In this document: positions 11,037 through 61,994 of the stretch, piece by piece
Position numbering within the stretch: the stretch's first letter is position 1
Layout of the letters: each line of letters begins with the position of its first letter
NCBI GenBank assembly: GCA_019359355.1
Contig: JAHHHM010000022.1
Location: 62,001 to 126,000 of the forward strand
Direction of reading: 5' to 3'
Source: Microcoleus vaginatus WJT46-NPBG5
Lineage (GTDB): Bacteria > Cyanobacteriota > Cyanobacteriia > Cyanobacteriales > Oscillatoriaceae
DNA length: 64,000 bases
Notes under the pieces: model-generated
Database searches by the model: none
What the model was told of the DNA's origin: nothing
What the model saw: only the letters and a program-made list of their open reading frames with translations
Program-made: the position numbers and the translations under genes

Positions 11037-12005
11037 TTATGTCTGAGACGCTAAGTTAAGGAGAAAATCACCGGCAACGCGACAAATGCGCCAGTCTGGC
11101 AATACAGAAGCGCCCAAATGCTGATAAAAATTAATCGCCGGCTCATTCCAAATCGCAACAGTCCATTCCAACCTCCCGCAATTACGAGTAACCGCTTGTT
11201 GAGCCAAATAGGTTAATATTGCTTTCCCGATACCTTGCTGCCGGTATTCTGGGAAAATGAACAGGTCTTCGATATAAATTCCCGGTTTCGTTAAAAAAGT
11301 AGAATAATTATAAAAGAATAGAGCAAATCCAACTACATTATCTGCGTGTTCTGCAACAATGGCTTCAGCATAGGGACGCAAGCCGAATAGATGTTCTGAG
11401 AGGGTGTCGGTGTTTCCTGTGACTGCCGGCAATTGCTGATTAAACTCAGCTTGTGCTTGAATTAATTGAAACAAAACGCGGATATCTGCCGGCACAGATG
11501 AACGCAAAGTTGCTGACGAGTTCCCATCTGCCATTTGAGCGAGAGATGCGCCACTGACTCGGCAAATTCGGCTATTTTCTCGAATAGAAGCACCCATGCG
11601 CCGGTAAAAAGCAATTGCCGGCTCATTCCAATCTAAAACACTCCAATCCAGCCGGCCACAACCGCGCGTAATTGCCAACTGCGCCAGGTAAGACAGCAGC
11701 GCTTTGCCAATACCTTGATTGCGGTATTCTGGTAGAACAAATAAATCTTCTAAATAAATTCCGGGCTTGGTAAGAAAAGTCGAATAGTTGTGGAAAAACA
11801 AAGCAAATCCCACACATTGACCGGCATATTCTGCAAGAATGGCTTCAACATAAGGACGCTCGCCAAAAAGGTGAGCTTCCAGAGACTCAGGCGTGCCGGT
11901 GACAGCGTGAGATAACTTCTCATACTCCGCCAATGCCTGAATTAGCTGAAAGATTGCCGGCACATCAGCCGGGGTTGCCGGTCGTAAATTGAGCGCAGGT
12001 TTCAT
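11037..12005 (-). CDS. Tandem GNAT N-acetyltransferase (two fused domains)
   Basis: A 322-residue protein made of two complete GNAT domains of about 155 residues each, both resembling the diamine-acetyltransferase branch. The acetyl-CoA loop appears twice, as PEYRNQGIGKALL and PEYRQQGIGKAIL. The strings NYSTFLTKPGIY and WNEPAI are shared by both halves, so the gene arose by internal duplication and fusion. Both halves keep the full P-loop-like motif and are potentially active. ATG 12005 is preferred over a TTG six bases upstream. It lies 78 bases downstream of the sigma-factor gene on the same strand and may share its transcript. Substrate unknown; polyamine or thialysine-like amines are a family-based guess. 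Confidence 0.88.
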   Translation of the reverse strand: MKPALNLRPATPADVPAIFQLIQALAEYEKLSHAVTGTPESLEAHLFGERPYVEAILAEYAGQCVGFALFFHNYSTFLTKPGIYLEDLFVLPEYRNQGIGKALLSYLAQLAITRGCGRLDWSVLDWNEPAIAFYRRMGASIRENSRICRVSGASLAQMADGNSSATLRSSVPADIRVLFQLIQAQAEFNQQLPAVTGNTDTLSEHLFGLRPYAEAIVAEHADNVVGFALFFYNYSTFLTKPGIYIEDLFIFPEYRQQGIGKAILTYLAQQAVTRNCGRLEWTVAIWNEPAINFYQHLGASVLPDWRICRVAGDFLLNLASQT

Positions 12006-46629: not shown

Positions 46630-47274
46630 TCAGAATTCATATAAAGTCTTAAACCAATTCACAAACATTTGGGCTTTTGGATGTTTTGGATTAATTATTT
46701 TCTTCTTGATGGCGTCATTCATGTGTTCTCCTGGTTTGTCCTGCCATGCTAGCCATGTATAAATATAAGCCTTATCTATATGAGACTCACTAAAGGGTGC
46801 ACCTCTATTCTTAGCTTCTCTTGCCGCCTCTTGGGCATAGTTCCACAGTATTTCACTTTCATCGGGAATCATGTCTGCCAAGAAGGTCTCTAACATACCT
46901 TGCAATTGGTTATCTGGCATAATCCAAACCCCAAACTTCTGCCCATCTTTAGTTGTATGGATTAGTCCTGAATCAGGTAGCTTCTTAGGTATATCGGGTA
47001 TGCTCTCCAAGCGCTTTTGTCTGACACTCTGCCATCGATTTTTTGAATTTTTATCAGCATCCACTATTAACCCTAGCCCAGTTAATCTTGAACCTTTCAA
47101 GTTAGCGGAAATTTTCTCCGGAGTTAATTTATCGTAGCCACCGAGAGCTATTATCTCAACAGGAGAAGGCTTATCCTCTTGCCAAGGAACTCCATTAGCT
47201 TTCATTAGAGGAGGAATGACCCAGAGATCTCTCTTACCTTCAACAAAAAGCACTTTTGCCTGTATTTCTCCCAT
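46630..47274 (-). CDS. DUF3226 (TOPRIM-like) protein, second gene of an ATPase operon
   Basis: A 214-residue soluble protein. KVLFVEGKRDLWVI (E12, D16) followed by GLGLIVDADKNSKNRW (D72, D74) is the E...DxD metal-binding pattern of TOPRIM-like folds. I recognise the family as DUF3226. It starts two bases after the stop of the ATPase gene, so the two are surely cotranscribed and probably act together. By analogy with OLD nucleases and PARIS, the ATPase would control a nucleolytic or toxic TOPRIM effector; this is inference. The region is AT-richer than its neighbours and lacks GCCGGC words, suggesting recent acquisition. Confidence 0.82.
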   Translation of the reverse strand: MGEIQAKVLFVEGKRDLWVIPPLMKANGVPWQEDKPSPVEIIALGGYDKLTPEKISANLKGSRLTGLGLIVDADKNSKNRWQSVRQKRLESIPDIPKKLPDSGLIHTTKDGQKFGVWIMPDNQLQGMLETFLADMIPDESEILWNYAQEAAREAKNRGAPFSESHIDKAYIYTWLAWQDKPGEHMNDAIKKKIINPKHPKAQMFVNWFKTLYEF

Positions 47275-47276
47275 GA

Positions 47277-48425
47277 CTACCGAACCTCAATCCCTTGCTC
47301 TGCAGCAATGACAATTTCACGTTCATTAAAGACGATACCTTCCTCTTTACCGCGTTCTATTCGTTGAATTGTAATTCCGTCTTCAGCTACATCTTCTTGA
47401 CTCGCAATATTAGCTAAGCTGGTCCAACAGTCACTACTGTGTGTAGTAGCGAAGACTTGCACATTTAATCTTTTTGACGTTTCACAGATGAGTTTCCACA
47501 TATCAGACATTGTACTAAAGTGAAGTCCGGTATCAATTTCATCGACAAATAAGACTCCACCTTCTGCCGAGACAGTTGCTAGTGCAAGCCCTAGTATACG
47601 CCAGAGACCATCTCCCATACTCCCAATAGGCACACGTTGGTCACTGTCAGAGAGGCGAACGACAAACGCACCCCGCGAGTCTGAACGTCTATATTGATTA
47701 GAGCTAACTGAAGCAATACGCTCAATTCTTGGTTCGATTACCTGAAGTGCCTCCTGTACAAGTTTTTCCTCAGGCGTTAGCACTACCTGATCAAACAACT
47801 CAATCATTTTCTCAGTTGTTAAAGATGATGAGGTGACAAATTGCGTTCTTGTCGCTATTTTTTTTTGTTTACTTATAAGCCGCCATCGCCGAGCAGAGTT
47901 AAAAGACAATCCTCCATTGGGCGACAAAAGGAGATCTCTTTTATCTTCTTCCTCTCCAGGAACCCATTTAATACTAATATTAAGTCCTTTTAAATCATTT
48001 AGATCACTATCAAATGATTTTTCAGTTAAACTAATTGTTTCTTCCTCAAAACTACGAGATGAATCGTATTTTGAGCCAATTGAACGGAGACCTATTGTTC
48101 CTTCTATAGATTCTTCTAATGTTTTTTTATTTGTACCTGAAATTGAGAATTGACTGCCTAGTTCAATCTCATGCCCATAAAAAAGGTGACGGATATCCAA
48201 TTCAGGTTCTCCCTTACCGTCATCTCCAACAAAATACTCACCTCGGTTCTTCATTATCTCAATGAGTGAATCAAGATTGTTGCGTCCGCATAAGAGTTGA
48301 ATAGCTTCCAGTACGGATGTTTTGCCACTGTTGTTTGTACCAACCAGTAGATTTACCCTGCCAAGCTGCTGAAGCTTAAAAGATTTGAAACCACGAAAAT
48401 TTTTTAATTTTATTGTCTTCAACAT
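47277..48425 (-). CDS. OLD/SMC-like AAA ATPase (AAA_15/AAA_21 type)
   Basis: A 382-residue ABC-type ATPase without membrane segments. It begins MLKTIKLKNFRGFKSFKLQQ, the standard FRG(F)-x-F opening of OLD/RecF-like proteins. Walker A is VGTNNSGKTS (G29-T36). A variant signature is PIGSMGDGLWRI, Walker B is VLFVDEIDTGLH and the H-switch is FATTHSSDCW. The insert of about 200 residues between Walker A and signature is family-typical. All ATPase elements look intact. It is the upstream gene of an operon with DUF3226. The ATG at 48425 is chosen over an open frame to 48494 because homology starts here. A terminator-like hairpin sits in its leader. Confidence 0.88.
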   Translation of the reverse strand: MLKTIKLKNFRGFKSFKLQQLGRVNLLVGTNNSGKTSVLEAIQLLCGRNNLDSLIEIMKNRGEYFVGDDGKGEPELDIRHLFYGHEIELGSQFSISGTNKKTLEESIEGTIGLRSIGSKYDSSRSFEEETISLTEKSFDSDLNDLKGLNISIKWVPGEEEDKRDLLLSPNGGLSFNSARRWRLISKQKKIATRTQFVTSSSLTTEKMIELFDQVVLTPEEKLVQEALQVIEPRIERIASVSSNQYRRSDSRGAFVVRLSDSDQRVPIGSMGDGLWRILGLALATVSAEGGVLFVDEIDTGLHFSTMSDMWKLICETSKRLNVQVFATTHSSDCWTSLANIASQEDVAEDGITIQRIERGKEEGIVFNEREIVIAAEQGIEVR

Positions 48426-48464
48426 AGAATTTAGTTGATAGGAAGTAACAAAGTAATAGAGGAA

Positions 48465-48495
48465 GAAAAAGTGCGAGCAGAAAAAAGCTCGCACT
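48465..48495 (-). terminator. Terminator-like hairpin in the leader of the ATPase operon
   Basis: On the minus strand AGTGCGAGC-TTTTTTCT-GCTCGCACT followed by TTTTC, a perfect 9-bp stem plus U-tract, 40-70 bases upstream of the ATPase ATG and in the same direction. It either insulates the operon from upstream transcription or attenuates it. Confidence 0.65.
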
Positions 48496-51035: not shown

Positions 51036-51045
51036 AAAATTTAAT

Positions 51046-51202
51046 GGCCTCTAGGGTTCCGGTTTGAGCCGCGCAACACCAATCAAATTTCAAATTGTAG
51101 TTGCTCAAATGCTGGTCCGAGAGAGGTAAACTGGCTTCTCCAAAACTTATAGTTTTTTGTGAGGAATTCGCTAGTCACACGGCGGGATAAAAGCCCGGGA
51201 GG
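51046..51202 (+). ncRNA. Guanidine-I (ykkC) riboswitch
   Basis: The leader carries the ordered consensus blocks of the ykkC class: CTCTAGGGTTCCGG (51049-51062), TGGTCCGAGAGAGGTAAAC (about 51113-51131) and CACACGGCGGGATAAAAGCC followed by CGGGAGGA (about 51176-51202). Guanidinium binding to this RNA turns on detoxification or utilisation genes. The conserved 3' strand AAGCCCGGGAGGAAC can alternatively pair with GTTCTCCTGGGCTTT (51230-51245), a plausible expression platform. The downstream gene is a guanidine hydrolase, in agreement with the call. Confidence 0.93.
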
Positions 51203-51303
51203 AACTTACCAGTCACTGAGACTGAGCTTGTTCTCCTGGGCTTTCGACGTTGACGAGCGCAAAATCCTCATTTTGTTGTTTTGAAAATTTCTAGGGTATT
51301 TAA

Positions 51304-52509
51304 ATGACTGAAAATCCTTCAGAAAACCCCATGTTCCAAAGCCCATCGACCAATAACGGGCACATTGCATCGGAAGCACAACGGGCTTTAGAATTGGAAG
51401 CAAGATTGCCATTAACCGGCTGGCAGCAAGAGGTATCAAAAGGTTTAGAATACGGATTGGAAGCAGCGGCAAGTATTCAAGATCGCAGTATTCCCACATT
51501 TTCTCGCGGTGAACTGCCTCATTATGCCGGGATTAACACCTTTCTCAAAGCACCTTATGTAGAAGATGTGCGGAAGGTTGGAGAATATGATGTTGCAATT
51601 GTCGGGGTTCCTCATGATTCCGGAACCACCTATCGTCCCGGAACAAGATTTGGCCCTCAAGGAATTCGACGAATTTCTGCACTCTATACACCCTACAACT
51701 TCGAGTTAGGCGTTGATCTGCGCGAACAAATTACGCTTTGCGATGTTGGGGATATTTTCACCATTCCTGCCAATAACGAAAAGTCATTTGATCAAATTTC
51801 TAAAGGCATCGCTCACATCTTTAGTTCCGGTGCATTTCCGATTATTTTAGGCGGTGATCATTCAATTGGTTTCCCAACCGTGCGCGGGATTTGCCGGCAT
51901 TTAGGGGATAAGAAAGTGGGCATTATTCACTTTGATCGCCACGCCGATACGCAAGAAACCGATCTTGATGAACGGATGCACACTTGTCCTTGGTTTCATG
52001 CCACCAACATGAAAAACGCCCCAGCAAAAAACTTAGTACAGCTAGGAATTGGCGGCTGGCAGGTTCCTCGTCAAGGCGTGAAAGTTTGTCGGGAACGTGC
52101 AACTAATATTCTCACCGTTACCGACATTGTAGAAAAAGGAATCGATGCCGCTGTTGATTTCGCTTTAGAACGGGCATTAGACGGCACGGATTGCGTCTAC
52201 ATCAGCTTTGATATTGATTGCATTGATGCCGGATTTGTCCCCGGTACAGGTTGGCCAGAACCCGGTGGATTGCTACCTCGTGAAGCCTTAGCGTTGTTAG
52301 CAAAAATTGTGCAACGTGCGCCGGTTTGTGGTTTAGAAGTTGTGGAAGTTTCTCCACCTTATGACATCAGCGATATTACTTCACTCATGGCAACTCGCGT
52401 CATTTGTGACACAATGGCTCATTTAGTCCTGTCGGGGCAACTGCCACGGAAGCAGAAACCCGCCTATATTTTTCCAGAGTCACAACCGGAACTTGTTGCG
52501 TGGTCATAA
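51304..52509 (+). CDS. gdmH: Nickel-dependent guanidine hydrolase (ureohydrolase family)
   Basis: A 401-residue member of the arginase/agmatinase fold. Metal ligands are all visible: H186 (GGDHSIGF), D211, H213 and D215 (HFDRHADTQ), D303 and D305 (SFDIDCID). Features seen in the guanidine hydrolase of Synechocystis (Sll1077/GdmH), as far as I recall it, are the HFDRHADT variant of DAHxD, the GFVPGTGWPEPGG loop, and an N-terminal extension of about 70 residues not found in agmatinases. The enzyme splits guanidine into urea and ammonia and needs Ni2+. A guanidine-I riboswitch in the leader and hypA/hypB-like genes downstream strongly support this over agmatinase. Confidence 0.92.
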   Translation: MTENPSENPMFQSPSTNNGHIASEAQRALELEARLPLTGWQQEVSKGLEYGLEAAASIQDRSIPTFSRGELPHYAGINTFLKAPYVEDVRKVGEYDVAIVGVPHDSGTTYRPGTRFGPQGIRRISALYTPYNFELGVDLREQITLCDVGDIFTIPANNEKSFDQISKGIAHIFSSGAFPIILGGDHSIGFPTVRGICRHLGDKKVGIIHFDRHADTQETDLDERMHTCPWFHATNMKNAPAKNLVQLGIGGWQVPRQGVKVCRERATNILTVTDIVEKGIDAAVDFALERALDGTDCVYISFDIDCIDAGFVPGTGWPEPGGLLPREALALLAKIVQRAPVCGLEVVEVSPPYDISDITSLMATRVICDTMAHLVLSGQLPRKQKPAYIFPESQPELVAWS

Positions 52510-52574
52510 AAGTTGAGAGGCGCAATTTATTGCGTCTCTATAACTAGAATATTTGCATTTGATTGGAGAGATCC

Positions 52575-52958
52575 ATGCACGAAACTGATATGACCAAAGC
52601 GCTCATTGTCACTGTCCGAAAATGGTGGCAAGAGCAGCCTGAGAAACCTAAAATTTCCCAGGTTCATCTAACCGTTGGTCAATTTACTTGTGTTGAACCT
52701 GTGAGTTTGCAATTTGCATTTGAAGTTCAAACTCGCAACACTTTTTTAGAGGGCGCACAGTTAGTCATTACAGAAACGCCACTGATTGCTTTTTGCCATC
52801 AATGCCGGCAGGAATATCGCCCTGAAATAGGCATTCAATATGCTTGCCCAACCTGTCAGTCCCCAATGGATGATATTCGCTCAGGGCGAGAATTGAAAAT
52901 TGAGCGCCTTGAATATTCACAACCCGATGTGGTTACTTCCAGTAAAGGCGAAGAGTAA
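52575..52958 (+). CDS. hypA: HypA-like nickel chaperone of the guanidine hydrolase
   Basis: A 127-residue HypA/HybF family protein. It has the nickel-binding N-terminus MHETDM (H2, E3) and a zinc site of C74/C77 (FCHQC) and C91/C94 (CPTC). HypA normally delivers Ni2+ to hydrogenase, but no hydrogenase gene is near. In this context it matches the accessory protein called GhaA that helps activate the guanidine hydrolase. ATG 52575 directly reproduces the invariant MHE start; it lies 65 bases after gdmH with GGAGAG upstream, and ghaB follows after 47 bases. Confidence 0.9.
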   Translation: MHETDMTKALIVTVRKWWQEQPEKPKISQVHLTVGQFTCVEPVSLQFAFEVQTRNTFLEGAQLVITETPLIAFCHQCRQEYRPEIGIQYACPTCQSPMDDIRSGRELKIERLEYSQPDVVTSSKGEE

Positions 52959-53005
52959 GAGCGTTGCCATTTATCGCTATTCATCTAAACTCCAAAGGCT
53001 GAATT

Positions 53006-53713
53006 ATGCACCAAACTTTTGACGCTGCTTTAGGAATTAATTTGCTTCATGCCAATCAGGAAGGGGCGGATCATAACCGCGCTCATTTTGATGAGTGGGG
53101 AATTACTTGCTTAAATATTATGAGTAGTCCCGGTGCCGGCAAAACTGCACTGCTGGAAAAAACACTCGCGGTTTTGACAAATGAGTGCAAAATTGCCGTG
53201 ATTGAAGGCGATATGACGACAGAATTGGATGCAGAGCGCCTGCGGAAATACAACGTGCCGGTGATTGCAATTAATACGGGCCGGTCTTGCCATTTAGATT
53301 CTAAAATGGTTGCCGGCGGAATTCACCGGCTCTCCCATGAATATAATCCCTCAGAATTTGATTTGGTATTGGTAGAAAACGTGGGAAATCTCGTTTGTCC
53401 TGCTGAATTTGAAGTCGGCGAACACCTAAAAGTTGCACTTTTGAGTGTGACAGAAGGGGAAGATAAACCGCTAAAATACCCGGTGATGTTTCAAGAAGCA
53501 GATTGTCTGTTAATCACCAAGATGGATATCGCGCCCCATCTAGATGTTGATGTGAATCAAATTGTGGCGAATGTGCGACAAATGAATCCTCATGTCACCA
53601 TTATTCCGGTTTCTGCAAAGACTGGAGAAGGGTTAGAGGCTTGGTTTGATTGGGTGCGTTCTCAGCTTGCTCAATCATCAACTGCTCAACAGCAACTTTC
53701 AGGTGTCTGCTGA
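53006..53713 (+). CDS. hypB: HypB-like GTPase, nickel insertion accessory protein
   Basis: A 235-residue SIMIBI-class GTPase. The P-loop is SSPGAGKT (40-47). [12 protein letters not shown] follows, and the metal-binding switch [11 protein letters not shown] has C95 and H96. The guanine-specificity motif is ITKMD and the end is [19 protein letters not shown]. There is no poly-His N-terminus. HypB dimers use GTP hydrolysis to release Ni2+ into target enzymes; here the target is probably the guanidine hydrolase two genes upstream (role called GhaB). Part of the gdmH-hypA-hypB cluster with short gaps. Confidence 0.92.
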
Positions 53714-53736
53714 GAGAATACCAACCCCACGATTGA

Positions 53737-53766
53737 AGGGGTGGGCAAGATGCTCACCCATCCCCT
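53737..53766 (+). terminator. G/C-rich hairpin between hypB and the ABC transporter genes
   Basis: AGGGGTGGG (53737-53745) pairs with CCCATCCCCT (53757-53766) with one bulge. No T-run. It may be a partial terminator setting a lower or independent level of transporter expression. Confidence 0.5.
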
Positions 53767-53992
53767 CACTAACAGCATTGATTACAAAACTTAAAGAGCT
53801 GGAAATATAAAAGCTCCCCAGATATCAAGTTTCAAGTTTTTTAAAATATCTGTAGGTTTTGTATCAAAAGAAACAAAGCGGTGACTGCTTTACCTGCTAC
53901 ACATAGTTAACCGCTCAGTCAAAAATTATTTTTGCTACAGCGAATAACAAACTGCTGAAAACTCCCAACCAATCTCTGCACTAGGAGATGCT

Positions 53993-55042
53993 ATGAGAGT
54001 GAGATCACCTCTATCTTTTTGTATCCTTTTTCTTGTCACACTGACTTTGGTTATCGGCTGCGTTAACCCGGCAATTTATATCAAAACAACCACCGAAACT
54101 GAGACTGCATCCTCAGCAAATGCCGGCAGCGTCCGTTTAGGATTTAGTGCATGGCCAGGTTGGTTTCCTTGGCAAGTTGCTCAACAACAGGGAATTTTTC
54201 AGGCAAATACTATTCCAGTCGATTTGAAATGGTTTGATGGGTATCTGGAATCGATCAGTACGCTGACAGCCGGCCAAATTGATGCCAATAGCCAAACGCT
54301 AGGAGATACGGTTAACTCTCTATCGGGTGGCGCGGATCAAGTGATTGTCCTGGTTAACGATAACTCCACCGGCAATGATAAGGTGATTGTCAGCGAAGGC
54401 ATTAACTCAATTGCTGATCTCAAAGGAAAAAAAGTCGCCGCAGAAGAAGGCACAGTTGATCACTTTCTGCTGTTGTTAGGACTAAAGAAAGCCGGTTTAT
54501 CACCACAAGACATTCAATTTATCCCGTTGGAAACAGGTAAAGCAGCAGCAGCATTTGTGGCGGGACAAGTTGAGGCAACAGCAGTTTTTGCTCCTTTCAC
54601 CACACAAGCTTTAAAACGTCCGGGTAGTAAAGAACTATTTAGTTCTAAGGATTTCACCGGCGCAATTTCCGATCATCTGGTCTTCACCCGAAAATTTGTC
54701 GATGAACATCCTGATCGCGTTCAAGCATTAGTTGATTCTTGGTTTGCCACCTTGGAATATATGAAGGCAAATCCAGAGAAATCTTATGAAATCATGGCGC
54801 AACGAGCAGGAGTCCCTGTTGAGGAATATAAACAGTATGCAGATGGCACTCGGATCTTCACCATTGAGGAAAATCTAACCGCTTTTCAACCAGGTAACGA
54901 TTTAACTTCCTTACAATTTGCTGCCCAAGAAATGAGTAAATTTCTTAGAGAAGTTGGTTTGGCAAACAATAATCCAGATATCAGCCGACTCTTTGATGAT
55001 CGCTTTGTCAAAGCCTACGCTGAGAAATTTAACAAAACCTAA
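53993..55042 (+). CDS. ABC transporter substrate-binding lipoprotein (NitT/TauT/SsuA type)
   Basis: A 349-residue periplasmic binding protein. Its signal peptide ends at the lipobox LVIGC (C23), so it should be membrane-anchored. The mature part has the SsuA/THI5-like fold: RLGFSAWPGWFPWQVAQQQG, then the characteristic ADLKGKKVAAEEGT and HPDRVQALVDSWF. Members of the family bind nitrate, taurine, aliphatic sulfonates, cyanate or pyrimidines. The position behind a guanidine hydrolase cassette and a riboswitch suggests guanidine or a guanidinium compound as ligand, which is inference. ATG 53993 has TAGGAGATGCT upstream (GGAG, 7 nt). Confidence 0.9.
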   Translation: MRVRSPLSFCILFLVTLTLVIGCVNPAIYIKTTTETETASSANAGSVRLGFSAWPGWFPWQVAQQQGIFQANTIPVDLKWFDGYLESISTLTAGQIDANSQTLGDTVNSLSGGADQVIVLVNDNSTGNDKVIVSEGINSIADLKGKKVAAEEGTVDHFLLLLGLKKAGLSPQDIQFIPLETGKAAAAFVAGQVEATAVFAPFTTQALKRPGSKELFSSKDFTGAISDHLVFTRKFVDEHPDRVQALVDSWFATLEYMKANPEKSYEIMAQRAGVPVEEYKQYADGTRIFTIEENLTAFQPGNDLTSLQFAAQEMSKFLREVGLANNNPDISRLFDDRFVKAYAEKFNKT

Positions 55043-55162
55043 GCTAGTTGTCAGTAAAATCACATTTTTTAGCTCTGCAATGTCATTAAATGTAATTTAT
55101 GCAACGATTCATTAACAATTACTAAGCTCACAATTATTTCTTTGTCGTTTTGAAATTTAGTC

Positions 55163-56008
55163 ATGAATCAAAATCCTGAATCGATTCGAGACTTTCTCCG
55201 ATCTAAAAAACTAAATCCAACCGTTTTCTGGCAACTTGCTGAAGACATCCCCAAACCGCTTCATACAGCATTACTAATTACCTCGATTGGCGTTCCTCTA
55301 ATATTGTGGTGGTTGGTCACTACCTTTGGAAACATCGATCCTAAATTTTTACCCTCGCCGGCTCAAGTTCTTGAGGCATTTGGCCGGCTGTGGAGAACAC
55401 GCGAACTCCTGAAAGATACCGTCGCAAGTCTATGGCGCGTCGGTGTTGGGTTTCTTTTTGCGGCAGTCCTTTCTATCCCCGTTGGCGTATTAATGGGCAG
55501 TTTTGCCAGTATTCGCGCCTTGCTGGAACCGCTGTTCGGGTTAATGCGCTATATGCCGGCACCGGCCTTTATTCCGCTGTTAATTCTCTACCAAGGTATC
55601 GGAGAAGAACCGAAAATTACTTTAATTTTTATCGGTGTGTTTTTCTTTAACACCCTGATGGTAATGGATACGGTAAAATTTGTATCCAAAGATTTAATTG
55701 AAGCTACTTATATGTTAGGAGGAAACCGTTTACAAGCCCTACTGCAGGTAATTTTTCCTCATGTTTTGCCGGGAATTCTTGATGCCTGTCGCATTAACTT
55801 AGCAGCCGCTTGGCAGTTAGTCATTGTCTCAGAACTCATTGCGGCATCAGAAGGGTTAGGCCGGCGCATCAGTGTGGCCGGTCGATTTCTTAAAACTGAT
55901 GAAATTTTTGTGGGATTGATTGTCATTGGAGTCATTGGCTTGACATTTGATCTGTTGTTTCAATACTTTTTAAGGATTTCTTGCCGGTGGGCAAGTCAAC
56001 AACGATAA
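55163..56008 (+). CDS. ABC transporter permease
   Basis: A 281-residue inner-membrane permease of the BPD_transp_1 family with about six membrane helices (for example ALLITSIGVPLILWWLVTTF; VGVGFLFAAVLSIPVGVLMG). The EAA-type coupling loop is EATYMLGGNRLQALLQVIFP. The N-terminus is cytoplasmic and charged. It forms the channel with the flanking binding lipoprotein and ATPase. No large gap or frame problem. Confidence 0.92.
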   Translation: MNQNPESIRDFLRSKKLNPTVFWQLAEDIPKPLHTALLITSIGVPLILWWLVTTFGNIDPKFLPSPAQVLEAFGRLWRTRELLKDTVASLWRVGVGFLFAAVLSIPVGVLMGSFASIRALLEPLFGLMRYMPAPAFIPLLILYQGIGEEPKITLIFIGVFFFNTLMVMDTVKFVSKDLIEATYMLGGNRLQALLQVIFPHVLPGILDACRINLAAAWQLVIVSELIAASEGLGRRISVAGRFLKTDEIFVGLIVIGVIGLTFDLLFQYFLRISCRWASQQR

Positions 56009-56090
56009 TCTCAGTTGTCGGCTTTATTTTATTAACAAACGCTCAAGTTTATCAATTGCAAACTTTGTTCTAATTAAGGAGATTTCACTC

Positions 56091-56864
56091 ATGTACTTGC
56101 AAATCAAAAATCTGCACAAGCACTTTGATACCAAAAATGGCTCGCTAGTTGTCCTGAAGGACATTAATATGACAATTAAGCGAGGTGAATTTATCTGTGC
56201 TGTGGGGGCATCGGGATCAGGTAAATCGACGCTGCTGCGACAAATTGCCGGCCTTGATATGCCGACATCTGGAGAAGTCACAATTGATGGAGAGCCGGTT
56301 ACTGGGCCAGGGCCAGATCGGGGGATGATATTTCAGCATTACACCCTTTATCCTTGGATGACTGTGCAGGAAAATGCTGAGTTTGGACTTAAGCTGCAAG
56401 GTGTACCGAAAAAGATTCGGCGTGAACAAGCAAGCTATTACTTAAATGTCGTAGGATTGGCTAATTTTGCGAAGACATTACCGAAGGAATTATCAGGTGG
56501 GATGAAGCAACGCGTGGCAATTGCGCGGGCGTTGGTTGCAGAACCCAAAGTGTTGTTAATGGATGAACCTTTTGGTGCGTTGGATATCCATACCAAAGAG
56601 TCAATGCACGAATTTATGTTAGACCTTTGGCAGCGCACGAATATCACAATTTTTATGATCACCCATGATGTGGAAGAAGCAGTTTTCCTGGCAAATCGTA
56701 TCTATGCTTTGGGAACGCGTCCGGGTACAGTGCGGAAAGAAATGACGATTAAGCTACCTGAACGCAGCTATAACGTTAAACGCCATTCTATATTCCACGA
56801 TTACCGGGATGAATTGATGGAGTTGTTGCGCCGGCATGGGCAAGAGGCTTTAGTTGCCGCTTAA
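56091..56864 (+). CDS. ABC transporter ATP-binding protein
   Basis: A 257-residue ATPase with Walker A GASGSGKST, Q-loop MIFQHYTLYPW, signature LSGGMKQRVAIARAL, Walker B VLLMDEPFGALD and H-loop MITHDVEEA. It is the SsuB/TauB/NrtD type, matching the substrate-binding protein and permease upstream. AAGGAG at about 56076 precedes the ATG. It is the last gene of the transporter cluster. Confidence 0.95.
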   Translation: MYLQIKNLHKHFDTKNGSLVVLKDINMTIKRGEFICAVGASGSGKSTLLRQIAGLDMPTSGEVTIDGEPVTGPGPDRGMIFQHYTLYPWMTVQENAEFGLKLQGVPKKIRREQASYYLNVVGLANFAKTLPKELSGGMKQRVAIARALVAEPKVLLMDEPFGALDIHTKESMHEFMLDLWQRTNITIFMITHDVEEAVFLANRIYALGTRPGTVRKEMTIKLPERSYNVKRHSIFHDYRDELMELLRRHGQEALVAA

Positions 56865-56924
56865 TTGGAATGGGGAATTAAGAGTTGTTAGACAATGGCG
56901 TTTTTCATTGGGATGAAAAACTTG

Positions 56925-57006
56925 GAAAAGCCAGAAAGACATTGGGGGGGTTCCCCCCAAACCCCCCATTGGGTGACGGTTGCGTCCCCCAAACCCCCTC
57001 CAAAAG
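56925..57006 (-). repeat. Single inverted copy of the 144-bp G-rich repeat
   Basis: On the minus strand this carries the core GGAGGGGGTTTGGGGGACGC, CCAATGGGGGGTTTGGGGGG and AACCCCCCCAATG found four times in tandem at 61463-61994, including part of the flank ...CTTTTCC. It lies about 60 bases after the ABC ATPase gene. Confidence 0.88.
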
Positions 57007-57294
57007 GGTTGATATGCTGCGTGTCAAGAGCCTGAAGATGAATTCTGAATGTATAATCTTGAAGATTGTTGAGAATTAATATATTTTTATTACGCTTAAA
57101 AGAAATTCTAAATAATTTATTAGATTGAAGCGCTGGACTGAACATGAGTGAGAGTTACTAGATTTCTATTTTAAGTAAGGCTGTACCTCGCCAAATTCAA
57201 TGAAGATCGGCTTTCATTTGAATTCAAAAAATGTGAGGCACAGCCTGAGAGTTTACATTGTCAAGCGCTAACTTAAAGAGGAAAAGTTTAAGCT

Positions 57295-58611
57295 TCAATC
57301 GGCCTGAAAGTTATTTGATTTAACAGTCGCTTCAACTGCTTTTAAATCAATCTCAAATTTGTTAGCAATAGTTTCCAGCAACTGTGTTTCTTCGGGGGTT
57401 ATTGTGCCATCGTTTTGGGAAAGGGTGTAACATTTCACCAGCAAAGGTAAGGCAAAGTCTCGGTTGAGTTTTTCAACCAGCCGGCCTAAAGGTTGGGGCG
57501 ATTTCAGTTCAGCCGTCATCACTTCTAATGAAGTTGGGCTAACATTCATTGCCTTTAACTCTGGCAATATATTTTCCCAAGATTTGTTTGGGTTACTTGC
57601 CAAAATTGTCTGAGCCAAAATTTGATCCATAATGCTTTGCTGTGCCAGTGCCACTGTTAGATATTCTTCACTATCTTTCTGGATAGCTTGCGCGACTGCC
57701 GGCGAACTCATGGGATCAACTTTGGCTTCATAGAACCGGCACGCGGCAAACCCCAAGGTGTAGAGCATAACCGTATTCGTGCCGGCACCAATCGCCATAC
57801 CGGCTAGGGGCACATTTCGCAGCACACCCAAGCCGAGTTTAATCGCTTGACTGCCACCGAGGGACAGCCCAAAAATTGCCATCACTTCACCCCGACGTGC
57901 CGGTGCTTGTAAATCCATGCCATAGGCGGCGGCGATCTGATAAATCATTTCCGCTTGCAGTTGCGTTGTCGCTGCCAAATCGATGGCTAGCAGCGCCAGT
58001 GCCACTCCTGGGACAAGACTGCTGACTAAACCCACACCGCCGGCTTGAATCGCTTTCTCTGACATAATTCGATGAGCGATTTCGTTGGCAGTTTCGTTGG
58101 GATGCTCTTGTTGTAGCTTTCTGACCGCTTCTTGAGCTTTAATTGTATCAACTTGGCCCACCATTCCCAGCAGCCATTCTGCCCGAAACACTTTCAAAAC
58201 TTGTCGCAATACGGGGTTATCGCCAATAAAACTAGCAGCACGACCGGCTTCATGTGTCGCTTTCTCAAATATCTCTTGGCTTTGTTTAGCTGCGGTTTGT
58301 GCCGTCTCTGCGGCTGTTGTCAAGGCTGCTTGACCGGCTTGAGTTGCAACTGTGCCAATTGCCCCACCCACGCCGGCTGCTGTCTGCATCACCGTTTGGC
58401 CGGTTTGCGCTGCAGCGTTAAGTGCCTCGCCTACGCCGGCAGTTACTTGAACTAATGAATCAAAAAGCGAGTGATTCTCAGTTCGGCTGGTTTGTGTTTG
58501 ACTGGTTGGGGTGTGGCTGCCGGTATCGGGTGCGTGTGCCTTCTCAGATGCCGGTGCCGATGAATTTACAGGTTCGTTTTGCTCAAAGTTTTTATCTTGT
58601 TCGTTAGTCAT
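57295..58611 (-). CDS. EcsC family protein with TerB-like C-terminus
   Basis: A 438-residue protein. The first 130 residues are polar then Ala/Thr/Gly-rich (repeats such as QTGQTVMQTAAGVGGAIGTV), typical of an amphipathic, disordered linker. The EcsC-like core spans about 140-315 with hydrophobic stretches (GVGLVSSLVPGVALALLAID; LGLGVLRNVPLAGMAIGAG). The last 80 residues (LPLLVKCYTLSQNDGTITPE, ETQLLETIANKFEI) look like a TerB helical module. Such proteins occur in phage- and stress-associated contexts in cyanobacteria, but the function is unknown. ATG 58611 has GGAGGAGG upstream on the minus strand. Two P-loop GTPases with similar hydrophobic C-termini lie within 15 kb. Confidence 0.8.
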   Translation of the reverse strand: MTNEQDKNFEQNEPVNSSAPASEKAHAPDTGSHTPTSQTQTSRTENHSLFDSLVQVTAGVGEALNAAAQTGQTVMQTAAGVGGAIGTVATQAGQAALTTAAETAQTAAKQSQEIFEKATHEAGRAASFIGDNPVLRQVLKVFRAEWLLGMVGQVDTIKAQEAVRKLQQEHPNETANEIAHRIMSEKAIQAGGVGLVSSLVPGVALALLAIDLAATTQLQAEMIYQIAAAYGMDLQAPARRGEVMAIFGLSLGGSQAIKLGLGVLRNVPLAGMAIGAGTNTVMLYTLGFAACRFYEAKVDPMSSPAVAQAIQKDSEEYLTVALAQQSIMDQILAQTILASNPNKSWENILPELKAMNVSPTSLEVMTAELKSPQPLGRLVEKLNRDFALPLLVKCYTLSQNDGTITPEETQLLETIANKFEIDLKAVEATVKSNNFQAD

Positions 58612-61342: not shown

Positions 61343-61462
61343 AAGTCAGCACGAGTGCAAAAAATCTTCTATCGACCAAAATATACCGCGTTACCTAGGG
61401 GTATAGCATCAGCACAGAAAAGATTCACTAAGATTAAACTACACATTATATACCAAGTAATC

Positions 61463-61994
61463 TATAACCCTCACAGATCACCCCGTGTGGAGGGGGTTTG
61501 GGGGACGCACCCGTCCACCAATGGGGGGTTTGGGGGGAACCCCCCCAATGCCTTTAAGACTTTTCAAGGATTACAGCAATCTGAAAACAGCTATATATAT
61601 CAAGCCTATAATTCTCATAGATCACCCCGTGTGGAGGGGGTTTGGGGGACGCACCCGTCCACCAATCGGGGGTTTGGGGGGAACCCCCCCAATGCCTTTA
61701 AGACTTTTCAAGGATTACAGCAATCTGAAAACACCTATATATATCAAGCCTATAACCCTCACAGATCACCCCGTGTGGAGGGGGTTTGGGGGACGCACCC
61801 GTCCACCAATGGGGGGTTTGGGGGGAATCCCCCAATGCCTTTGAGACTTTTCAAAGATTACAGCAATTTGAAAACAGCTATATATATCAAGCTTATAATT
61901 CTCACAACCCCCCCGTGTGGAGGGGGTTTGGGGGACGCACCCGTCACCCAATGGGGGGTTTGGGGGGAACCCCCCCAATGCCTTTGAGACTTTT
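61463..61994 (+). repeat. Four tandem 144-bp G-rich repeats
   Basis: The units share GTGTGGAGGGGGTTTGGGGG, whose positions (61485, 61629, 61773, 61915) give periods of 144, 144 and 142 bases. Each unit has G-tracts of five to six (GGGGG TTT GGGGG ... GGGGGG TTT GGGGGG), a GGGTT...AACCC inverted part, and an AT-rich tail GAAAACAGCTATATATATCA. The frame stays open through the array because 144 is a multiple of three. I regard that ORF as non-coding. Confidence 0.95.

Follow-up and report, generated by a model that had tools for sequence, protein, structure and literature searches.

A predicted guanidine-induced operon in Microcoleus vaginatus WJT46-NPBG5 and the association of its NitT/TauT-type importer with guanidine pathways across genomes

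Organization of the locus

This study concerns a putative guanidine-utilization operon of Microcoleus vaginatus WJT46-NPBG5 that is contained in a 64,000-nucleotide (nt) stretch of contig JAHHHM010000022.1 (positions 62,001 to 126,000), which we refer to as the window. A preliminary description of this DNA, made from the sequence alone, had proposed that elements for sensing, catalysis, metallation and import are contiguous and co-oriented. Our analysis confirms that all of these elements follow one another on the + strand up to position 56864, with the following features.

51040..51203, + strand: Guanidine-I (ykkC) riboswitch aptamer (Rfam RF00442, 67.0 bits against a gathering score of 63)
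51192..51242, + strand: putative expression-platform hairpin, formed on its 5' side by the 3' end of the aptamer (AGCCCGGGAG) and called from its folding energy against shuffles
51304..52509, + strand: gdmH, predicted Ni-dependent guanidine hydrolase of the ureohydrolase family (phmmer, 776 bits to 7esr/7oi1; PF00491)
52575..52958, + strand: ghaA, HypA-like nickel chaperone, start ATG 52575 (TIGR00100, 126 bits; PF01155, 109 bits)
53006..53713, + strand: ghaB, HypB-like GTPase (TIGR00073, 315 bits)
53993..55042, + strand: substrate-binding lipoprotein of a NitT/TauT-type importer (SsuA_fam TIGR01728, 236 bits; TIGR03427, 152 bits; cysteine C23; tree)
55163..56008, + strand: importer permease (PF00528; conserved neighbour of the binding protein)
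56091..56864, + strand: importer ATPase (PF00005; conserved neighbour of the binding protein)

The intergenic gaps from gdmH to the ATPase gene are, in order, 65, 47, 279, 120 and 82 nt. A search of the + strand from 51225 to 57320 detected no terminator-like site, which is compatible with a single transcript but is not proof of one. A scan for a promoter belonging to the importer itself returned 11 sites against 12.7 expected in shuffles and was therefore given no weight. The Rfam scan also detected no second riboswitch in the 279-nt gap between ghaB and the lipoprotein gene of the window, whereas the related locus L063 does have one at this place. The next large open reading frame (ORF) located 3' of the operon, at 57295-58611, is on the opposite strand.

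Guanidine hydrolase and nickel chaperones

The stretches GGDHS, FDRHADTQE and FDIDCID are all present in the GdmH protein of the window and align to 7esr. We take GGDHS, FDRHxD and FDID to be the arginase-type metal-ligand motifs of a binuclear site, and on this reading the earlier statement that gdmH retains all of its metal ligands is upheld. The best solved homologue is 7esr/7oi1, with 776 bits over residues 22-393, which is the Synechocystis guanidinase as described in passages of PMC11410670. A match of 593 bits is obtained with 9fek, which is described as the Nitrospira guanidinase, while the nearest relative that is not a guanidinase scores 177 bits. As a member of the ureohydrolase family that is closest to the characterized guanidinases, the window protein is predicted to be a guanidine hydrolase.

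Both chaperone-like proteins score well above their family cut-offs (GhaA, 126 bits against 88 for TIGR00100; GhaB, 315 bits against 121 for TIGR00073) and are the sole proteins of the genome to do so. For ghaA we prefer the ATG at 52575 over the TTG at 52563 that is given in the ORF list, because the protein then begins with MHE, presumably the HypA nickel motif. The large subunit of NiFe hydrogenase (PF00374) has no match in the whole genome, and the proposal of hypA/hypB-like genes without any hydrogenase thus extends to the entire genome as far as this one family shows. A HypA-/HypB-type pair that adjoins gdmH in a genome with no detected NiFe hydrogenase would be expected to load nickel, and this is the role that we predict for GhaA and GhaB.

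Riboswitch and leader hairpin

The RF00442 match spans the full model (1-107) and exceeds the gathering score by a slim margin (67.0 versus 63 bits), which bears out the guanidine-I RNA recognized earlier at this position. It is the sole Rfam match above gathering score in the 64 kb and also the sole RF00442 found in the 6.46 Mb genome, a result based on the scoring of 150 of 196 first-look candidates. The core of the aptamer aligns well, and two of its hairpins are long, with 36 and 32 bases versus 4 and 6 in the model.

The hairpin that overlaps the 3' end of the aptamer has a folding energy of -28.7 kcal/mol (z -3.84 against 200 shuffles of the stretch 51191-51250). Its conservation was assessed in 70 sequences comprised of the window and 69 GdmH loci; the latter derive from the best 80 of more than 80 GdmH loci in the genome collection, of which 11 were omitted because the motif was absent within 650 nt or the sequence was too short. 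Under a stricter test the same overlap of aptamer and hairpin is present in 68 of the 70 sequences versus 516 of 2100 shuffles, and by a looser count at least four T occur within nine bases after the hairpin in 66 of 70. A looser first hairpin test was set aside, being passed by 69 of the 70 sequences but also by 721 of 1400 shuffles. In an alignment of 32 of the 68 hairpins (A2) the pairs vary mostly from G-C to G-U because the aptamer fixes the 5' arm. This leader arrangement is compatible with a transcriptional off-switch, which is the mechanism given for this riboswitch class in passages of PMC11410670. Two features argue the other way: the 3' flank of the window hairpin, TTCGACG, is terminator-like but has a weak T run in this copy, and a double change is observed at only one of nine consensus hairpin pairs.

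Association of the importer with guanidine pathways

The preliminary description had called for a comparison of gene order around gdmH, and in this comparison all six genes occur in the window order in 47 of the best 80 GdmH loci. The binding protein is encoded within the fetched stretch in 52 of these 80, and in 18 of the 28 loci that lack it the available sequence extends 5 kb or more downstream from gdmH. There is also variation in this order. For example, the importer of L073 is a separate unit behind its own RF00442, L063 contains a second RF00442 between ghaB and the importer, and in L061 gdmH comes last. One GdmH operon, L028, is located in a record titled Candidatus Gracilibacteria, and its binding protein and the Hydrococcus L029 copy form a pair in the tree (support 100/99); this record is most likely a misassigned cyanobacterial contig.

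A second sample consisted of 244 genomes of the phylum, in which GdmH (E <=1e-150) is encoded by 36 genomes, the binding protein (E <=1e-90) by 37 and both by 30 (Fisher p about 7e-26, uncorrected for genome kinship). The binding-protein count includes G070, where the gene (L121) stands by itself with neither permease nor ATPase, and G095 encodes GdmH but neither the ABC importer nor the SSF symporter described below at the thresholds used. Seven genomes have the binding protein without GdmH, and six of these seven encode a full-length urea/guanidine carboxylase with scores of 1711 to 2781 bits, the query being taken from G085, itself one of the six. Four GdmH genomes that served as contrast gave only partial carboxylase matches of 389 to 412 bits. 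Genes for UAAP1 and UAAP2 adjoin the importer in L112, L113 and L116, and an allophanate hydrolase gene is near it in L112 and L116, the last of which also holds the carboxylase gene. G060 and G185 encode the importer on one contig and the carboxylase cluster on another, and each contig has a Guanidine-I riboswitch.

We searched for RF00442 in nine loci with either an importer apart from any gdmH operon or a suspected second riboswitch. The importer is located directly behind this riboswitch in seven of them (L063, L073, L112, L113, L114, L115 and L118), and L117 has no riboswitch. Separate regulation of the transporter genes, which had been named beforehand as a result that would speak against a role in guanidine uptake, therefore does occur in some genomes, but the regulator found there is of the same riboswitch class. 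As the importer accompanies both the hydrolase and the carboxylase pathways it appears to track the substrate and not one enzyme. Its co-occurrence with two unrelated pathways, together with the frequent presence of its own Guanidine-I riboswitch, constitutes independent evidence on its substrate and supports the earlier prediction of guanidine uptake by a NitT/TauT-type transporter. We consider this comparative evidence to be strong, and the window genes, which supply all three NitT/TauT-type components (binding protein, permease and ATPase) within a guanidine regulon, are predicted to encode such an importer.

Family, fold and residues of the binding protein

The lipobox of the window binding protein was read by eye with its cysteine at position 23, which is invariant in 39 aligned proteins (alignment A1, 39 of 53 proteins). 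The top NCBIfam match is SsuA_fam TIGR01728 (236.4 bits, cut-off 163.5), a broad subfamily model that is named for aliphatic sulfonates and that does not settle the ligand. Membership in narrower families was rejected: TIGR03427 is the second-best model but reaches only 152.3 bits against a cut-off of 333.9, TauA TIGR01729 67.5 bits against 304.25, and SsuA NF008588 82.9 bits against 299. An AlphaFold model of the protein has a mean predicted local distance difference test (pLDDT) score of 88.4.

Phylogenetic placement used a tree of 76 rows that omits the own-genome paralogues OWN_L005, OWN_L008 and OWN_L009 as well as nitrate binders, and whose long branches make the deep order unsure; the Synechocystis importer protein was outside the fetched loci and is thus absent. 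The window protein is placed together with L112 and L113, which are copies of carboxylase-type genomes (support 95/88). The enclosing clade of 23 rows (100/100) mixes hydrolase-linked, carboxylase-linked and riboswitch-only copies, with E. coli TauA and SsuA outside of it. Clustering with the binders of other ligands had likewise been named as a result that would count against guanidine; in this tree without nitrate binders the protein is separate from E. coli TauA and SsuA, although its fold is closest to theirs. Among the 62 cyanobacterial rows of the tree clade set, W60 and N128 are present in all 62 and D105 in 61. All three residues are also found in an Acinetobacter protein and in three TIGR03427 proteins, while none of nine other relatives compared has the full set, several of them sharing W54, an aromatic residue at 57 or D129. 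This comparison is based on a sequence alignment with positions picked after viewing the data and is therefore a lead only.

Two related proteins are encoded in other contexts. The Microcoleus genome contains an orphan lipoprotein gene (C12:23026-24063; L096 8024-9064, - strand) whose product is 49% identical to the window binding protein. Behind this gene, in the same orientation, lie two methyl-accepting chemotaxis protein genes, and the lipoprotein may deliver its ligand to a chemoreceptor. We did not count this protein as a spare guanidine binder because it has F57, V60 and G128 instead of the W, W and N of guanidine-linked cyanobacterial proteins and has no adjoining permease or ATPase gene. 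The plasmid cluster that encodes the Acinetobacter protein (L102 4151-11154) also has genes for allophanate hydrolase, an SMR exporter, a hypothetical protein and, next to the last, a 2OG-Fe(II) oxygenase; no riboswitch above gathering score was detected in L102.

A symporter and other candidate importers

Additional importer types are present at some GdmH loci. A gene for an SSF-family symporter is located within 4 kb of gdmH or behind ghaB in five of the best 80 loci (L022, L025, L037, L053 and L057), and the ABC binding protein is absent from the fetched stretch of all five. L025 also contains a lone ATPase gene 68% identical to that of the importer, and its symporter gene is 3.6 kb from gdmH with two ORFs between. 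Among the 244 genomes the symporter (E <=1e-100) occurs in six, all of them GdmH-positive (hypergeometric p 7e-6, again uncorrected for kinship), and it is present in four of the six GdmH genomes without the ABC binding protein versus two of the 30 with it (G070 and G170). The symporter gene follows ghaB in L125, L126 and L131, lies behind its own RF00442 (5801-5915) at position 6023 in L122, and stands alone in L123 and L124. A Guanidine-I search gave no match in L123, L124, L025 and L037. The longest open frames of the symporter are as follows.

L022: 8221-9711
L025: 3869-5371
L037: 7019-8575
L053: 11658-13163
L057: 3167-4666
L122: 6023-7525
L125: 8585-10141
L126: 8298-10112
L131: 5876-7375

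In L045 a symporter fragment (11449-11604; 52 residues at 71% identity) is situated in the interval from ghaB to the ABC binding-protein gene, with an apparent symporter N-terminus read by eye just before 11449. We regard this remnant of about 11400-11604 as a sign that one importer has replaced the other. Among solved structures, choline transporters are the closest relatives of the L022 symporter, and their substrate is an organic cation. Another ABC set, NitT/TauT-like and with its ATPase gene first, follows ghaB in L023 (11519-13393), and the same distant type follows a second Guanidine-I riboswitch in L128 (6367-9035; genome G027); its binding protein is 26-30% identical to the window type, and it may play the same role in these two loci.

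These observations suggest that a different kind of importer operates in some relatives. We lean slightly toward a model in which the guanidine importer is an exchangeable module, with the ABC importer serving both the hydrolase and carboxylase pathways and the SSF clade replacing it in some GdmH lineages as a sodium-coupled guanidinium importer. The symporter is thus a concrete candidate for a predicted second class of guanidinium importer, and we suggest that 'proline-symporter-like', 'aliphatic sulfonate transporter' and similar labels are misleading at such loci. A limited literature search found no paper that ties such an SSF symporter to guanidine, which is not proof of novelty.

Proposed function and competing explanations

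The genome under study (6.46 Mb, 99.6% complete) encodes urease alpha elsewhere (989 bits) with accessory genes that were recognized by eye, and a UrtA-type urea binding protein is encoded near urease (596 bits). Given both GdmH and urease, the route from guanidine through urea to ammonium is complete on paper. We are confident that the locus is a guanidine-induced nitrogen-scavenging operon belonging to the published GdmH operon family. In the absence of guanidine the 3' strand of the aptamer would fold into the downstream hairpin and transcription would halt before gdmH, while in its presence the aptamer would retain this strand and allow transcription to proceed. As judged from comparison with relatives, guanidinium would be captured by the lipoprotein and passed to the permease/ATPase pair. 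GhaA and GhaB would then load nickel into GdmH, and GdmH would convert guanidine to urea and ammonium, both steps being in print for Synechocystis and proposed here by homology, with urease completing the breakdown.

An alternative is that the importer carries another compound, such as a sulfonate, taurine, nitrate or a larger guanidino compound like methylguanidine, and that its position near gdmH is incidental or only loosely related. Several observations weigh against guanidine as the substrate, and those on family, fold and the Acinetobacter relative favor this alternative. The top NCBIfam model of the binding protein is SsuA_fam, and the folds nearest to its model are those of the taurine and alkanesulfonate binders TauA and SsuA, as the family predicts. 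Additionally, the importer is divergent from the enzyme genes in L068 and divergent in L116, where the riboswitch faces the other way, and G229 has the importer yet no GdmH, full-length carboxylase or Guanidine-I match (150 of 308 candidates scored), its binding-protein gene beginning about 335 nt from a contig end. There is also the 33%-identical Acinetobacter relative, whose plasmid cluster resembles a methylguanidine operon described in passages of PMC12508155. Against this alternative, 30 of the 37 genomes with the binding protein also encode GdmH and six more the carboxylase, the importer repeatedly has a Guanidine-I riboswitch of its own upstream, and the scores obtained with the TauA and SsuA models are far under the cut-offs. 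We consequently judge a substrate other than guanidine to be improbable, while a specificity that includes methylguanidine may be compatible with the data. Less probable still is that the cluster detoxifies guanidine made in the cell, with the ABC genes a separate unit not normally co-transcribed: a 279-nt gap does precede the lipoprotein gene, the importer has its own riboswitch in several relatives, and guanidine is described as toxic to cyanobacteria with the toxicity relieved by Sll1077, but the gap has no + strand terminator-like site, a substrate-binding lipoprotein marks the transporter as an importer, external guanidine is described as a nitrogen source for Synechocystis via Sll1077, and levels of sll1080-1082 are described as elevated in guanidine-producing strains.

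Two further features of the window lie outside the operon. Repeated C/G-rich stretches at 56930-57010 and 61355-61990, in which mechanical ORFs share peptide motifs (THPSTNGGFGGNPPNAF and similar), look like dispersed or tandem repeats. Upstream of the operon, on the - strand at 46630-48494, are two adjoining genes for an AAA-type ATPase-like protein and a 214-aa protein, which by eye we take to be a possible OLD-like pair.

Comparison with known systems

Synechocystis sp. PCC 6803 has an equivalent operon, sll1077-1082, in which we take sll1078 and sll1079 to be the hypA and hypB genes. Its riboswitch class and kinds of genes, as described in passages of PMC8390497 and PMC12186494, are shared with the window, which differs in being from another organism and in its long aptamer hairpins. 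According to PMC8390497, Sll1077-type genes are often in operons with hypA, hypB, sll1080, sll1081 and sll1082 under guanidine riboswitches, and the levels of these operon genes are elevated in guanidine-producing strains. A review (PMC12186494) states that Synechocystis imports guanidine through the operon-encoded ABC transporter, and a passage of PMC12930504 makes the same statement and refers to a PNAS 2025 paper on cyanobacterial guanidine assimilation. The novelty implied by the preliminary description is therefore not sustained: both its observation and its interpretation are right, but both are already published for the same operon, including the transporter as a guanidine importer. The window itself adds little beyond one more cyanobacterium in a published operon family, with a genome that encodes the path from guanidine to ammonium.

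The clusters Pro-eCAG_004 and Syn-eCAG_001 of marine picocyanobacteria resemble the window in that a ykkC riboswitch precedes speB2 (the gdmH orthologue), hypA, hypB and ABC transporter genes, and guanidine transport is suggested for them in passages of the population genomics study PMC10119275. Most Synechococcus/Cyanobium copies are described with an extra downstream Rieske Fe-S gene, whereas the next large ORF of the window, noted above, is on the other strand. The TauABC and SsuABC systems of E. coli share transporter family and fold with the window importer (TauA 6ssy, E 1.2e-21; SsuA 2x26, E 3.7e-20), but they fall outside the cyanobacterial clade and do not have the W54, W57, W60, D105 and N128 of the window protein. 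The family TIGR03427, named 'putative urea ABC transporter' and found in urea/guanidine carboxylase operons of Rhizobium, Pantoea and Azospirillum plasmids, likewise represents a NitT/TauT-type importer in a guanidine context. Unlike the window importer its members serve the carboxylase pathway, and they form a separate long branch in the tree. The Azospirillum locus L100 gave no Guanidine riboswitch match, and in L098 and L099 a Guanidine-I riboswitch is located directly before the binding-protein gene (L098 6902-7975; L099 6905-7960) with Guanidine-II farther down, before later genes of the operon. The name of this family should probably read guanidine instead of urea.

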